This document shows positions 49,231 through 57,664 of a stretch of 64,000 bases of DNA, in pieces (within the stretch, counting starts at the first letter, position 1; each line of letters begins with the position of its first letter). Under the pieces are notes generated by a model, which ran no database searches, was not told the origin of the DNA, and worked only from the letters and a program-made list of their open reading frames with translations. Source of the stretch: an uncultured Rubrobacteraceae bacterium (GTDB taxonomy: Bacteria > Actinomycetota > Rubrobacteria > Rubrobacterales > Rubrobacteraceae); NCBI GenBank assembly GCA_902806065.1, contig CADCVE010000065.1, positions 1 to 64,000 of the forward strand. The letters are read 5' to 3'. The translations under genes and the position numbers were made by a program.

Positions 49231-50097
49231 TTGAGAAATTTGCGGACATACGGACTGGTCTCGACCATAACCCTTATAGCATTGGCTGCGCTACTCATCT
49301 CGCCCTCAACTCAAGCCGCTAAAAAGCTCCCGGAGAAAGCAATATCTGCCTCTGCAGGTCAAACCACCGAACCGTCCGCGAAGGTAGACAAAGAGATGGG
49401 AGAATCAGCCTACAGAAAACTCCGCCTGGATAACAAACTCATCATCGAACGACCTGTCCCCGAAGAACCAATCTCAGTTCCTGCTCCTGAAGAGCCGGTC
49501 CCGGAAGGACCAGCACTCGCCCCGCCCCCCGCTCCTGCCCCGGAGCCAAACCAAGACCAGAGAGCCGGGACTCCCGTGCGGGTGGAGGAGACGGGCATAC
49601 CCGTACTTCCGGGCCGCTTTCAGGATGCTCGGGTACAAGAAGCCTCCGCACCGGCTCCCCCAGAGGTCGCGCCACCAGCGCCCGCGCCGGCACCCAAACC
49701 CACCGACACCAGGTTGTTGCTCACGGTGCCGCGGCTGGGGCTCACGGATATAACGGTCGGGGATTCCCCAAAGCAGTCCTACCTGGACCGGGAGGGGATC
49801 ATGCACCTCTCAGGGACTGGCTTCCCCTTCAAGCGCAACTCGAACACTTACATCGCAGGTCATGCCGGAGACTTCGGCGGGAGCCGCATACCGAACGTCT
49901 TCCGCAACCTCATCGCACTCCGCGATACCAACGACAAGGTCTACAACTACCGCGTCTACGAGCGCCTCGTCGTAAACCCCCGCGACGTCTGGGTCACCGA
50001 TCCCATCCCCGGCAAGAAGATAATCTCGCTTCAGACCTGCTTCCCCGCCCCCACCTACGAGAAACGCCTTGTAGTAAGAGGAGAACTGGTCAAGTAG
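49231..50097 (+). CDS. Class-E-like sortase
   Basis: The 288-residue protein has an N-terminal membrane anchor (TITLIALAALLISPSTQAA) and a long Pro/Glu/Ala-rich linker (about residues 75-165). The C-terminal sortase barrel has catalytic His211 (YIAGHAGDF), Cys270 (LQTCFPAP) and Arg279 (YEKRLVV). The barrel sequence is of the actinobacterial class-E type; such enzymes attach surface proteins to the cell wall or cross-link them. A second sortase follows 78 bp downstream. The linker probably spans the wall or positions the enzyme. TTG 49231 has no Shine-Dalgarno. Confidence 0.88.
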   Translation: MRNLRTYGLVSTITLIALAALLISPSTQAAKKLPEKAISASAGQTTEPSAKVDKEMGESAYRKLRLDNKLIIERPVPEEPISVPAPEEPVPEGPALAPPPAPAPEPNQDQRAGTPVRVEETGIPVLPGRFQDARVQEASAPAPPEVAPPAPAPAPKPTDTRLLLTVPRLGLTDITVGDSPKQSYLDREGIMHLSGTGFPFKRNSNTYIAGHAGDFGGSRIPNVFRNLIALRDTNDKVYNYRVYERLVVNPRDVWVTDPIPGKKIISLQTCFPAPTYEKRLVVRGELVK

Positions 50098-50161
50098 CTC
50101 TGGTTGACAGCCTGCTGATGCTTAACCACACCTTTAGCTACCGTTTGTCCGCACGGCCACA

Positions 50162-50167
50162 TATAAT
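50162..50167 (+). promoter_or_regulatory. -10 box of the second sortase gene
   Basis: A perfect TATAAT ends eight bases before ATG 50176, again pointing to a leaderless transcript. The second sortase therefore has its own promoter despite its proximity to the first. Confidence 0.5.
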
Positions 50168-50175
50168 CCCCGTCG

Positions 50176-50811
50176 ATGTTCAAGAGTTTGAAGATTTCGG
50201 TGCTCGTAGTGTGTCTGGCGCTCTTGGGGCTGGCGGCGCTCCCGGCCTACCCGCGAACGGAGACGGCTTCCTTGACTCTGAGCCCGGTGGAGGTCCAGAA
50301 CACCCGCCAACTCCTCGGCGAGAGTCCGACGGGCGCACGGCCGGCCCCCTCGCAAGATGCAAGCATGCAAGACGGGGCGGAGGGCGACGCGGTCGGCGGG
50401 ACGATGACGCTCTCGATACCCAAGCTCGGGCTGGAGAACATACCGGTGCCTACAGCGGATAGCCAGGTAGCGTTGGACCGGGAGGGAATCATCCGCTTCG
50501 GAGAGACCGGTACGCCCTGGGAGGAGGGCTCCAATACCTTCGTCGTGGGTCACGCCCTGGGCTATCTCTGGACCAGGACTCCCTACGTCTTCTACAAGCT
50601 GGAAGATCTAAAGCCCGGAGATGAGATCATCGTCAGAGACCAGGCGGATGAGGAGTACGTCTTCGAGGTCTACGACCGCGTAACCGTAAAGCCCGAAGAC
50701 TTCTGGGTCACCTACCCCGTCCCCAACAAGACCACCATCTCCCTGCAGACCTGCACCCCCATCCCCACCTTCGAGAACCGCCTCGTAGTACGCGGCAAAC
50801 TCATCAGCTAA
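50176..50811 (+). CDS. Class-E-like sortase, second copy
   Basis: The 211-residue protein has a short N-terminal anchor (LKISVLVVCLALLGLAALPA), a linker of about 50 residues and the sortase domain with His126 (FVVGHALGY), Cys193 (LQTCTPIP) and Arg202 (FENRLVV). Both sortases share the segments LDREGI, the His loop and the VWVT/FWVT strand, so they are paralogues; this one lacks the Pro-rich linker. No gene with a clear LPxTG-type signal is adjacent. Its 3' end converges on the J-domain gene with a 15-bp gap. Confidence 0.88.
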   Translation: MFKSLKISVLVVCLALLGLAALPAYPRTETASLTLSPVEVQNTRQLLGESPTGARPAPSQDASMQDGAEGDAVGGTMTLSIPKLGLENIPVPTADSQVALDREGIIRFGETGTPWEEGSNTFVVGHALGYLWTRTPYVFYKLEDLKPGDEIIVRDQADEEYVFEVYDRVTVKPEDFWVTYPVPNKTTISLQTCTPIPTFENRLVVRGKLIS

Positions 50812-50826
50812 CCCGAAGCTATCAAT

Positions 50827-51315
50827 CTACCGGTGAAGGAGGTGGCGTTCGACGACGTCGTGGGCAGCGTTGATCTGCGCGGTCAACTTTTCGGCGCGCT
50901 CTCTCTGCTCGGGCTCCACGAAACGATCCGGATGGTATCGCTTGACGAGATCTCGCCGCTTCTTGTTGACCTCTTCGAGGGAGCTACCGGCGCCCAGCCC
51001 GAGCCGATGATAAGCGGCTAGCACCTCCGGCGGATACTGCTTCGGCATGTAACGCGGCGCTGTAGCCCGCCACCCGTTCATCCGGTCTCTCGAAGAGCGT
51101 TCCCCCGATACCCCTTCGGCTATGCGCTCTTCAGCGGCGCGTTCCTCGTTGGCGCGGCGCCACTCCTCGGTGAAGCCGCGCCGGGCGGCGTCGAGGGCGT
51201 CTTTCAAGGATTCGCCGCGTTCGCGACCGGCCCGGACAGTCTCTCTGACACGCTCGTCGTTTATGTTCGAGACAAATCCCCGGGCGAGGCGCCCCAGACG
51301 GCGCGGGATGCTCAA
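50827..51315 (-). CDS. J-domain protein ending the PspA operon
   Basis: The 162-residue protein has a basic, helical N-terminal part (RLGRLARGFVSNINDERVRETV) and a C-terminal J-domain (about 98-160): AAYHRLGLGAGSSLEEVNKKR, then KRYHPDRF with HPD at 128-130, then AEKLTAQINAAHDVVERHLL. J-domains stimulate DnaK-type chaperones, so this protein should bring Hsp70 to a specific client, here probably the product of a neighbouring gene. Its start overlaps the preceding stop by four bases. It is the last gene of a four-gene transcript beginning with pspA. A C-terminal J-domain is less usual than an N-terminal one. Confidence 0.85.
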   Translation of the reverse strand: MSIPRRLGRLARGFVSNINDERVRETVRAGRERGESLKDALDAARRGFTEEWRRANEERAAEERIAEGVSGERSSRDRMNGWRATAPRYMPKQYPPEVLAAYHRLGLGAGSSLEEVNKKRRDLVKRYHPDRFVEPEQRERAEKLTAQINAAHDVVERHLLHR

Positions 51316-52025
51316 CGTCTGTCGGGCGGACCATGCGGGTCGCGGTACGGCGAGGGGCCTTCGAGAGGCGTATCGGCGGGCTCCTCTGCGGCGCCGAAAG
51401 TACCGCCGCGGCGTCGTAAGACTCGGGTCTCGTCGGCGTCGAACGGTTCGAAGACCTGAGTCTCGTCCACCGGCGGGTCTTCCACCGGTTCGGAAGCTTC
51501 CTGTTCTTCCTCCGGGTCGGGGAAGCTAAAAAAGGCGCGCACCCGTTTTATGCCTTCGATCCCGTCCACGGCGCGTGAGATCCTCTGTTCCTCCTCGGCG
51601 ATGCCGGCGTCGCAGGCCTCCCGGACCCTCCTTATCTCCTCCTCCAGGGAGCGCACGTCATCCTCAGTCCTGTAGCGGAGTTGCTCCTGCCGCTCCCGGG
51701 CCAGATCCATCTCGGAGTTGAGCTTCGACTCCCGCGCGCGGGTGGACCTCTCCAGGTCCTCGACCTGTATGCCCGCAGCCAGGAGCGTGCCACGTACGAT
51801 GCGCACAGCGCTGTCCCGGGGAACCTCCGGCGGCAGGTCGTCTATTACCTCCGCCGCCCGCTCGACAGTCAAGCCCTGAGGACGCTGCTCCTCTTCAGGC
51901 GGTGGCGGCCCGCCTCTTCCTCTACTGGATTCCTTCCGCCCGAGCGCTTCGGGCGAGAACACATTGGTCTCGTCGTCTCCCGAGCCTCCGCCGAGTATCC
52001 TGGAGAAAAAGCTCTTGTCACTCAT
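51312..52025 (-). CDS. Coiled-coil protein with three DETxV motifs, unknown
   Basis: The 237-residue acidic protein has disordered ends and a helical centre (about residues 85-160). DETNVF occurs at 18-23, DETQVF at 187-192 and DETRVL at 198-203. These resemble the (D/E)-T-x-V-F threonine phosphorylation sites recognised by FHA domains in actinobacterial Ser/Thr kinase signalling (GarA-type); that similarity is my inference. VERAAEVIDDLPPEVPRDSAVRIVRGTLLAAGI may be a small folded part (named here by its ends VERAAEVIDD and TLLAAGI). It overlaps the genes on both sides by four bases, so its level is locked to that of PspA and the J-protein. No known family was recognised. Confidence 0.7.
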   Translation of the reverse strand: MSDKSFFSRILGGGSGDDETNVFSPEALGRKESSRGRGGPPPPEEEQRPQGLTVERAAEVIDDLPPEVPRDSAVRIVRGTLLAAGIQVEDLERSTRARESKLNSEMDLARERQEQLRYRTEDDVRSLEEEIRRVREACDAGIAEEEQRISRAVDGIEGIKRVRAFFSFPDPEEEQEASEPVEDPPVDETQVFEPFDADETRVLRRRGGTFGAAEEPADTPLEGPSPYRDPHGPPDRR

Positions 52026-52882
52026 CGTACCGGTATCCTTTCGGGGAAGGTTTCCGTAAGCCCATCGGGCGGTTCGTCAGAGATCAACGCACCCGGCAGA
52101 CGGTCCACGCTCTTTTGCACCTCTTCGAGGCTGCGCCGGAAGTAGGCGACCCGCTGCTTGAGGCTCACGAGCCCCGACTCCGGCGAGAGAGCCCCCGGGC
52201 TGGCGTCGAGGGCCAGCAACTCCCCGCGCAGGTTGCCGAGCAAGCTCTCTACGCCCTCTAGCTGAGCGTTGATCATACCTATCGCCCGCGGCACCTGGTC
52301 GTGGGCCGCGAGTTCCCCGCGCCTCCCCTCCAGCGCCGCCTCGAACGATACCCTGATAGCAGAGCCCTCCTCGAGCCCCCGAAGCTCACCCTCCAAGTCC
52401 CGGATACGCGCCACTATGCCTCGCCGGTCCACACTCTCCAGATGCCGCCTCAAGGCCGATCGCCGCCGCGCCAAAAGGGCCGACGCCTCGACCTCGTCCA
52501 CGACGGTATACAGGTCTTCCAGCAACAGCGGCCCATACTCCTCGGGCAAGAGTTCCCAACTCTCCAACAACCCCTCCTGAAGCCCCACGAGCCGCTTCAT
52601 CTGCGGGGCGGCGATCCCGTCCGTCCGCCCCACCCGCATCAACTCCGCGACGTTCGCCCGTACCCGGCGCCGCAACTCCTTGCGGGCTTGCCTGCGCCGA
52701 TCAAAGAGCCGACGCCCCGTAAAGATAGCGCCGAACCCGAGCATAGCCGCGAGAACATAAGCCTCACCGGCAACCGCCATCGTCCCAAGCCCGGCCATCG
52801 AGCCGAACGGCAAGAAACGCAAGAGGCTGCCCCGGATACGCTCCGACCTTCTCCTGCCTCTCCGGACGACCGACCGGCTCAC
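52022..52882 (-). CDS. Membrane-anchored coiled-coil protein, unknown
   Basis: The 286-residue protein has a basic N-terminus (RRGRRRSERIRGSLLRF), one hydrophobic hairpin or two short helices (about residues 22-55: GSMAGLGTMAVAGEAYVL and AAMLGFGAIFTG) and a long helical C-terminal region rich in Arg/Glu/Leu with heptads. Its position between pspA and the DETxV gene, with four-base overlaps on both sides, suggests it anchors the complex at the membrane, but no family was recognised. The architecture (two short membrane segments then coiled coil) recalls PspB/C-like partners only in a general sense. Confidence 0.7.
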   Translation of the reverse strand: MSRSVVRRGRRRSERIRGSLLRFLPFGSMAGLGTMAVAGEAYVLAAMLGFGAIFTGRRLFDRRRQARKELRRRVRANVAELMRVGRTDGIAAPQMKRLVGLQEGLLESWELLPEEYGPLLLEDLYTVVDEVEASALLARRRSALRRHLESVDRRGIVARIRDLEGELRGLEEGSAIRVSFEAALEGRRGELAAHDQVPRAIGMINAQLEGVESLLGNLRGELLALDASPGALSPESGLVSLKQRVAYFRRSLEEVQKSVDRLPGALISDEPPDGLTETFPERIPVR

Positions 52883-53676
52883 GCGCCACCATCGCCGCGT
52901 TCGGCCCCACGTTTGTCGAGCCGTTTGTCGAGGAACTCGTCCATGCGTTCGATGTTCTGTTCTTCGGCTTCTTGCGGGGAGTCGTCACCTGATCCCAGGG
53001 AGGCGGCAGGTCTCAGACCCATTTGAAGCTCCATCATCTCCAGTTCGCGTTCGGCGTCGATGCGCTTTATGTCCACTTCGGTCGAGGCGATCTGGCGCTC
53101 TGTCTCGCTTGCGCCGAGCTCGCCGACGGCCTGCGCCTCGTAGGAGGACTGCCGTATGGCCTGCCGCGCCTTCTCCAGGTCGCGGGAGGAATCCGTCAGG
53201 GAGATGCTTGCGCGTGCCTCGTTCGCCGCGCGCAGCGCCTTCGCGCGCTGGTTCTCTTCCATGAGAGCCGCCCGCTCGCGCACTAGATCGTTATACCTCC
53301 GCTCCTGATCCCGGAACGCCCGCTCCATCTCCCGCGAATTGCTTCGGGCTTCATCGAGGCGGCCTTCTATCTCGGAGAGCCTCGTCTGCGCCTCCTGCTT
53401 CTGCTGCACGACCTGGACGGCAGCCTCCCGTTGTCCCCGCGCCGCGAGCTCCCGCGCCTGTCTCTCTTTAACCGTGATGGTCTTTTGCTTCTCGGCGGCA
53501 TCACTCGTGAGCATCTTCTCGTAAGCCATCGTCCGGGCCGTCGCAACCTGCAGCTTCTTCAGGTTGTCGAGCTCATCCTGGACCACGTTCTCCAGAAGAA
53601 TCTCCGGATTGCGATGTTCGACCCCGGAGAGGAACTTACCGAAGAAACCCCGAACCGCTCTCGTAAACCTTCCCAT
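52879..53676 (-). CDS. pspA: PspA/IM30 (ESCRT-III-like) membrane-stress protein
   Basis: The 265-residue protein is almost entirely helical. It has the amphipathic N-terminal helix (MGRFTRAVRGFFGKFLSGVEH) and the long coiled-coil hairpin (about 30-170) of the PspA/IM30 family: NVVQDELDNLKKLQVATART, then EKQKTITVKERQARELAARG. A C-terminal acidic tail ends in MDEFLDKRLDKRGAERGDGG. Family members polymerise on damaged membranes and limit proton leakage. It is the first gene of an operon of four. The promoter on the minus strand has TATAAT with a palindrome between the boxes. No PspF or PspB/C homologue is adjacent. Confidence 0.85.
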   Translation of the reverse strand: MGRFTRAVRGFFGKFLSGVEHRNPEILLENVVQDELDNLKKLQVATARTMAYEKMLTSDAAEKQKTITVKERQARELAARGQREAAVQVVQQKQEAQTRLSEIEGRLDEARSNSREMERAFRDQERRYNDLVRERAALMEENQRAKALRAANEARASISLTDSSRDLEKARQAIRQSSYEAQAVGELGASETERQIASTEVDIKRIDAERELEMMELQMGLRPAASLGSGDDSPQEAEEQNIERMDEFLDKRLDKRGAERGDGGA

Positions 53677-53729
53677 CTCTAAGCACTACCCCCAGAGGGT
53701 CTATAAACTACTCTGTCTTTTCGCCCAGA

Positions 53730-53758
53730 TTATAACATCGGGCGATTTTCGCCCGAAC
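53730..53758 (-). promoter_or_regulatory. Promoter and palindromic operator of the pspA operon
   Basis: On the minus strand TATAAT (53735-53730) is preceded by 17 bases and TTCGGG. Between the boxes lies a perfect 8-bp inverted repeat, TCGGGCGA-TTT-TCGCCCGA (53739-53757 on the plus strand). A further half-site, TTTTCGCCC, occurs at 53719-53727, 28 bp from the matching TTTTCGCCC at 53747-53755. The layout suggests a repressor that covers the promoter. Confidence 0.5.
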
Positions 53759-53837: not shown

Positions 53838-54812
53838 TTAGCGAGCGGCCTGGAAAGAGGTCCCCGACCCCGGGACGCCTCGCCCGGCCAGGACTATGGC
53901 GCTTGGGCTTTCGATCTCGAAGGCCGCTTCCAGGGCCGCACCCGCCGCGACCAGGAGGTCATCCGCCGAACGGGCGTCACGAGGGTAGATCGCCCCTCCG
54001 GCCCGCGTCTCCTCGGCCCCCAGAGAGTTCGCCGCCGCCAAAGCCCGCCGCGCCGCGCTCTCCAACATCGAGTCGTCCACGTCACTCAACACGACTCCGA
54101 AGACAGCGCCCTCCCCGAGCAGGATGGGCTCCCCGATTCTGGCCCGCATTCGCTCCATGAGAAGCCGCGTATCCCCGACTCGCCCCGGATCCACGAGGAT
54201 CACCCCAACTTGCACTCCCCGTCGCGCCTCTAGCTCGGCCGAGACCCTCTCTAGAAGAACCGAACCGTCCTCGTCCAACGCATACCCTTCCTCACCGCCG
54301 GCCGCAACGCTCCTAGCCATCGCGAGCGCGAAAGCACCGAAGAGCCCGAACGCCACGAGCCTGAAGAAGACCAGAGCCGGCCCACCCACGCCACCATCCA
54401 GAGTATCCGGCAACATCGCAAGCGCGTAGCTCACCAACACCGCACCCTGCACGAGGAGGCTCATCCGCCCCGAACCATGTAGAGCGGAAGCAACGATCAA
54501 AGGGAAAAAGAACACGTACAACTCGCTTGAGATTCCACCGGTGAAGAAAGCTATCGTAGCGATCAAGAACGCATAAAGTGCATAAAAGGCCACGCAAAAT
54601 CCCTCCCCGAACTGGCGCGTGGGAAGCAAGAGGAGGGCGATCGCCACCGTAAAAACTACCGAAACCGTCATGTAGAGCGGCACGTAGGAGACGGCTGGTC
54701 TGTAAGAATCGCCGTGTACTAGCAAGAGCGCGGCAACCACAAGACCTGGGTAGAGAAGCGAGAGCCCCTTCAACACCTGGGTGTTCCTTGCTTTGCTAGT
54801 CGCACCATTCAT
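53838..54812 (-). CDS. Membrane protein with degenerate GGDEF domain
   Basis: The 324-residue protein has about six hydrophobic helices (residues 15-175) followed by a cytoplasmic GGDEF-like domain. The cyclase motif is replaced by GEGAVFGVVL, while the C-terminal part (AGGAIYPRDARSADDLLVAAGAALEAA) still follows the GGDEF pattern. The active-site residues are missing, so it is unlikely to synthesise c-di-GMP; such domains often act as sensors or bind GTP. It lies upstream of, and in the same direction as, the pspA operon, with its own 160-bp spacer. The start at 54812 has no strong Shine-Dalgarno. Confidence 0.75.
   Translation of the reverse strand: MNGATSKARNTQVLKGLSLLYPGLVVAALLLVHGDSYRPAVSYVPLYMTVSVVFTVAIALLLLPTRQFGEGFCVAFYALYAFLIATIAFFTGGISSELYVFFFPLIVASALHGSGRMSLLVQGAVLVSYALAMLPDTLDGGVGGPALVFFRLVAFGLFGAFALAMARSVAAGGEEGYALDEDGSVLLERVSAELEARRGVQVGVILVDPGRVGDTRLLMERMRARIGEPILLGEGAVFGVVLSDVDDSMLESAARRALAAANSLGAEETRAGGAIYPRDARSADDLLVAAGAALEAAFEIESPSAIVLAGRGVPGSGTSFQAAR

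Positions 54813-55178: not shown

Positions 55179-57664
<2,486 letters not shown>

Follow-up and report, generated by a model that had tools for sequence, protein, structure and literature searches.

A class-wide operon of Rubrobacteria encodes PspA together with a J-domain protein and two proteins without family matches

Results

Four overlapping genes form a pspA operon

The coordinates given here are positions in the window, that is, the whole 64,000-nt stretch of DNA that was analysed, unless a locus handle is given. On the minus strand of the window, from 53676 to 50827, lies an operon of four genes, pspA and three that we refer to as M2, D3 and J4 (Table 1). Adjacent genes share exactly four bases at each of the three junctions (GTGA at pspA/M2, ATGA at M2/D3 and TTGA at D3/J4), and these exact overlaps argue that translation of the four genes is probably coupled. 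An earlier, sequence-only reading had described four start-stop-overlapping genes encoding PspA, a J-domain protein and two further proteins, one a membrane-anchored coiled-coil protein and the other acidic, coiled-coil and unrecognised; we could verify the coordinates, the strand and the 4-base overlaps in the window sequence, and the PspA and J domains both score above their curated Pfam cut-offs. (A tandem pair of sortase-domain genes at 49231-50811, convergent to the operon, separates J4 from xerC; some relatives have two such genes, some a single one and others neither.)

Table 1 Features of the pspA operon and its upstream region (window positions)
Feature	Position	Strand	Remarks
G5	53838..54812	minus	multi-TM protein with a degenerate, weakly GGDEF-like end
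pspA promoter, extended (TGN) -10 element TATAAT	53729..53734	minus	exact in 21/21 sequences
pspA	53676-52879	minus	265 aa, ATG start
M2	52882-52022	minus	286 aa, GTG start
Predicted M2 TM hairpin, ~residues 21-60	52703..52822	minus	model helices plus hydrophobic glycine-rich stretch
D3	52025-51312	minus	237 aa, ATG start
D3 motif DETNVFS (T20, S24)	51954..51974	minus	T20 89%, S24 100% conserved
D3 motif DETQV (T189)	51453..51467	minus	T189 84% conserved
D3 motif DETRVLR (T200)	51414..51434	minus	T200 invariant, 19/19
J4	51315-50827	minus	162 aa, TTG start
J4 N-terminal cationic amphipathic helix MSIPRRLGRLARGFVS	51268..51315	minus	conserved in 21 homologues
J4 C-terminal J domain	50851..51015	minus	HPD at 50934-50926

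The first gene encodes a PspA/IM30 protein of the ESCRT-III superfamily. Its product matches PF04012 (PspA_IM30) at 3.3e-12, with 46.9 bits against a curated cut-off of 33.9, and its nearest solved relatives are cyanobacterial Vipp1 structures (profile match, 1.4e-6). The N-terminus of PspA is a cationic amphipathic helix (moment ~0.7, charge +4), and searches of the class genomes found a single PspA per genome. All sequences compared (21/21) have an exact TATAAT 45-67 nt 5' of pspA, in most cases with a TGN before it, and the retention of this element throughout suggests that a housekeeping-type promoter precedes the pspA unit. This conserved promoter sits between pspA and G5, a gene that precedes pspA in 19 of the 20 long loci (18 full-length ORFs and one cut by a contig end) and likewise in most of the remaining loci. 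Note that G5 is a nearly constant neighbour and may belong to the pspA unit. (G5 and the adjacent gene at 55179-55625 both have degenerate GGDEF-like ends, and the two genes have in common a short stretch that is 41% alike over 39 residues.)

The sequence-only reading had also stated that PspB, PspC and PspF are absent. For the operon this holds, since no PspC is encoded there and neither PspB nor PspF was found in the operon or in the flanking genes scanned; as regards PspC it does not hold for the genome, where a stand-alone PspC-domain gene lies at C1:85647, as one does in every good-quality relative.

M2 is a predicted membrane-anchored protein distinct from PspM

Neither M2 nor D3 matched a family in Pfam, NCBIfam or the PDB, neither has convincing PDB relatives, and scans with 19 homologues of each returned weak, scattered matches only. 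No PspB/PspC or PspM model matched the two middle proteins, and comparison gave no support for a relationship of M2 or D3 to PspA or to each other. M2 occupies the position that PspM has in mycobacteria, directly after pspA. The curated PspM model NF047839, which scores true PspM at 1e-67 or better, gave no match to M2; the hhalign probability was at most 8%, and the soluble part of M2 scored no better than a reversed control.

The AlphaFold model of M2 is all-helical (mean pLDDT 81.6), with helices at residues 21-37 and 40-87 and long helices after the hairpin. From this model, M2 appears to be anchored in the membrane by its N-terminal hairpin. The best Foldseek matches have E values above 0.01 and low TM-scores, and we therefore do not claim a BAR/eisosome fold for M2. 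The protein is present in 22 of 22 good-quality class genomes and in all 13 genera (13/13). (In one MAG, at L034:6178-7599, M2 minus its last ~40 residues is fused in frame to D3; such a fusion would fit direct contact between the two proteins, or it may be an assembly fault.)

D3 carries conserved threonine motifs

D3, an acidic coiled-coil protein, has no fold match, and its matches to known coiled-coil, FliG or DivIVA families are at chance level only. Its structural model has a confident helical core (~54-166) and low-confidence ends, which are presumably disordered and acidic. The conserved residues T20, S24, T189 and T200 (84-100%) stand out in these ends, for which the median conservation is 37%. 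In 20 D3 proteins there are 43 acidic-T-x-V/I-hydrophobic motifs, as against the 1.8 that composition would predict (500 shuffles gave at most 7). Because the pattern was picked with the alignment in view and the proteins are related to one another, this ratio exaggerates the independent evidence; the conservation of the threonine columns is the firmer evidence. Conserved acidic-Thr-x-x-hydrophobic motifs in presumably disordered segments are thus a feature that D3 has in common with phospho-adaptors of the Ser/Thr-kinase/FHA type (GarA/OdhI-like switches).

These motifs resemble what Ser/Thr kinases and FHA domains prefer. Mycobacterial kinase sites have acidic residues upstream and a hydrophobic residue at +3 (PMC7164672), and FHA binding depends in part on the pT+3 residue (PMC5549992). 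Of the three FHA domains encoded in the genome, two share a contig stretch with two of its five Ser/Thr kinases; an FhaA-like protein on that stretch bears a TRIF motif similar to the D3 motifs. We predict, reasoning from these sequence features, that D3 is phosphorylated by Ser/Thr kinases. Note that D3, unlike GarA and OdhI, has no FHA domain of its own (Pfam), and it is therefore not a GarA homologue.

The FhaA-like protein at L166:1387-2268 (complement) has a linker with DDTSGQTRIFRTEKP, which resembles D3's first, N-terminal Thr motif, and the next gene encodes an FHA protein that contains the stretch PEDETFVPG. In one incomplete MAG, a second D3-like copy (1.9e-53) is found on another contig (G004:C363:1570-2163); it may be a paralogue, or it may stem from contamination by a related strain.

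J4 combines a PspA-like amphipathic helix with a J domain

In J4 a variable linker joins an N-terminal helix to a C-terminal J domain, which has an HPD motif. The Pfam DnaJ match is 7.4e-7 (29.6 bits against a cut-off of 27.8), and H128, P129, D130 and F132 are invariant in 21 of 21 sequences. The N-terminal helix is cationic and amphipathic (moment ~0.8, charge ~+4), like the N-terminus of PspA, and judging from these properties it is likely to bind membrane. Both this helix and the conserved, phosphothreonine-type motifs of D3 are newly noticed here; the sequence-only reading, which had recorded D3 as a DETxV protein, had missed them. The genome encodes one full-length DnaK and five J proteins, and all five were found by the J-domain search. 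(Another J protein of this genome, of 362 aa and encoded at L252:595-1683, begins with a hydrophobic segment and has its J domain at the C-terminus, with a long region between the two.)

The four-gene order is kept across the class

The order PspA-M2-D3-J4 is intact in 20 of 20 long-flank Rubrobacteria loci from 13 genera, and the 4-base overlaps are mostly kept; the arrangement is thus not due to chance. The order, which could have proved peculiar to one genome, is common to the class. Further loci, from named or deposited genomes several of which are identical to genomes counted under other handles, agree wherever the contig is long enough, for example in Rubrobacter marinus (L085) and R. 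taiwanensis (L104). The linkage of J4 to pspA is strict in the 20 long loci and in these further loci. The flanking sortases vary in number and are missing in L043 and L045, and the four genes remain together. M2 and D3 are restricted to the operon in nearly all genomes, and outside the class a 296-genome sample of the phylum gave few matches to them, all weak and short.

As a control we used 80 pspA neighbourhoods from other actinobacterial genomes, with ~4 kb on each side. None of these contains a J domain, M2, D3 or J4, so that the same operon was not found in other actinobacterial classes. The J-domain negative is meaningful within ~4 kb, because the same search detects all five J proteins here. 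The control neighbourhoods have a different make-up, with PspA followed by PspM, or PspA with HtpX and small proteins. (In L196, L201, L202, L212, L219 and L235, genes for an HtpX-type zinc protease and PspAA/PspAB-like proteins lie directly after pspA.) Note that a PspA scan of the contigs of 84,980 species found only PspA of the Rubrobacteria type, and the pairing of pspA with a J protein was thus compared within Actinomycetota. In the phylum-wide sample, the four-gene operon is found in Rubrobacter-class bacteria and was not detected elsewhere.

Discussion

Comparison with known systems

The sequence-only reading had suggested a membrane-repair device in which chaperones take the PspA polymer apart, and for this idea there is a demonstrated precedent. 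It comes from the chloroplast, where VIPP1 polymers are assembled and disassembled by HSP70B-CDJ2-CGE1, CDJ2 is the dedicated J protein that hands the polymer over to Hsp70, and HSP70B can be replaced by the DnaK of E. coli; a review likens the VIPP1 step to the uncoating of clathrin by auxilin (PMC6882379; PMC10602608). Like VIPP1-CDJ2-HSP70B of Chlamydomonas, the Rubrobacteria unit pairs a PspA-family polymer protein with a J-domain protein, and the genome encodes one full-length Hsp70. The unit differs in being bacterial and operon-encoded and in having two added putative partners, M2 and D3. J4 fits a CDJ2-like role because it has a C-terminal J domain, a probably membrane-binding helix and strict linkage to pspA, in a genome with a single full-length DnaK.

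The mycobacterial ClgR-PspA-PspM-PspN system is likewise from Actinomycetota, and there too the gene directly after pspA encodes a protein that has a TM hairpin at its N-terminus. However, M2 is not PspM by model or profile, G5 rather than a regulator lies upstream, D3 has neither a PspN domain nor any other Pfam match, and J4 has a J domain. With PspABC-PspF of E. coli the unit shares PspA as effector, whereas the PspC gene lies outside the Rubrobacteria operon, which is thus not a classical PspABC system in which PspC is encoded with PspA. The pairing of PspA with a protein quality-control factor recurs in the actinobacterial loci that have PspAA/PspAB-like small proteins and HtpX, the factor there being a membrane zinc protease and in the Rubrobacteria unit an Hsp70 recruiter. 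With ESCRT-III and the AAA+ protein Vps4, and with clathrin and auxilin-Hsc70, a polymer or coat is likewise removed from the membrane at the expense of energy; compared with the former, an Hsp70 recruiter would replace the AAA+ ATPase.

A proposed PspA unit with its own Hsp70 branch

We favour, with somewhat more confidence than doubt, a model in which the operon encodes a unit for membrane protection by PspA that has an Hsp70 branch to itself. PspA would polymerise on damaged inner membrane, and M2, anchored by its predicted TM hairpin, would dock or nucleate it there. J4 would rest on the same membrane via its PspA-like amphipathic helix, and its J domain would recruit the single full-length DnaK and trigger ATP hydrolysis on PspA; the polymer would in this way be taken apart for reuse, as VIPP1 is by CDJ2-HSP70B and clathrin by auxilin-Hsc70. 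In the physical complex that we envisage, D3 would be a phospho-switchable adaptor between the parts; Ser/Thr kinases would probably phosphorylate its Thr motifs, FHA proteins would read them, and this would couple PspA turnover to cell-wall signalling. Recruitment of DnaK to PspA by J4 seems to us the likelier part of the model, the roles of M2 and D3 being less certain.

Several findings argue for the model: the order and overlaps are kept, there is one PspA, the HPD is invariant, PspA and J4 share the type of N-terminus and the chloroplast offers a precedent; D3 motifs exceed expectation, kinases and FHA domains are present, and L034 has an M2-D3 fusion. Against it stand the 80 other actinobacterial pspA neighbourhoods, in which no J protein is linked to pspA, and the consideration that J4 could serve DnaK on clients other than PspA.

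The latter consideration leads to an alternative in which J4 recruits DnaK for membrane-protein quality control and the clients are not PspA itself, being instead misfolded proteins at a PspA-M2-D3 platform. J proteins often select clients, the variable linker of J4 could bind them, and an HtpX-type quality-control protease adjoins pspA in other actinobacteria. Nevertheless, we consider this alternative unlikely, since the closest precedent targets the PspA-family polymer itself and J4 is linked strictly to pspA alone. We give slightly less credence again to the idea that PspA and the M2 and D3 coiled coils form a constitutive envelope scaffold, tuned by Ser/Thr kinases in growth, with J4 aiding assembly rather than stress repair or disassembly. 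The housekeeping-type promoter with its constant TATAAT (21/21), the kinase/FHA-like motifs of D3 and the long helices of M2, with BAR/eisosome-like fold matches, would all suit a scaffold. Those fold matches are, however, non-significant, and because the Hsp70 of the precedent carries out both assembly and disassembly, the scaffold differs from our model mainly in physiology. That the operon simply groups four genes for envelope or housekeeping functions whose products form no complex and act separately, as might be supposed because no relationship of M2, D3 or J4 to known PspA partners was detected, is quite improbable given that the four genes remain coupled where the sortase neighbours vary and that M2 and D3 are nearly always confined to the operon.

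The Hsp70-branch model invites a more specific formulation, which we offer tentatively and think rather doubtful: that the operon encodes an auxilin/Vps4-like logic for an ESCRT-III-type polymer in bacteria, in which a membrane-docked J protein and DnaK would uncoat PspA under the control of kinases acting through a disordered adaptor read by FHA proteins.

Significance

A comparative study of PSP systems describes the control of assembly as unknown for PspA homologues without an associated AAA ATPase, and its main text does not mention DnaJ, DnaK, Hsp70 or a J domain (PMC11237479). In a full-text search of a literature collection that is itself incomplete, no report of a J protein in a bacterial PspA operon came up, and a link of PSP to Ser/Thr-kinase envelope signalling was not found in the literature searched. 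Hsp70-driven turnover of a PspA-family polymer has so far been shown for chloroplast VIPP1. The operon of the Rubrobacter class suggests a bacterial route for recycling PspA polymers, and a class-wide PspA-J operon is a genetically clean site for testing Hsp70-driven turnover of a bacterial ESCRT-III polymer. If the model is true, the motif-bearing D3 would moreover tie PSP to Ser/Thr-kinase envelope signalling.
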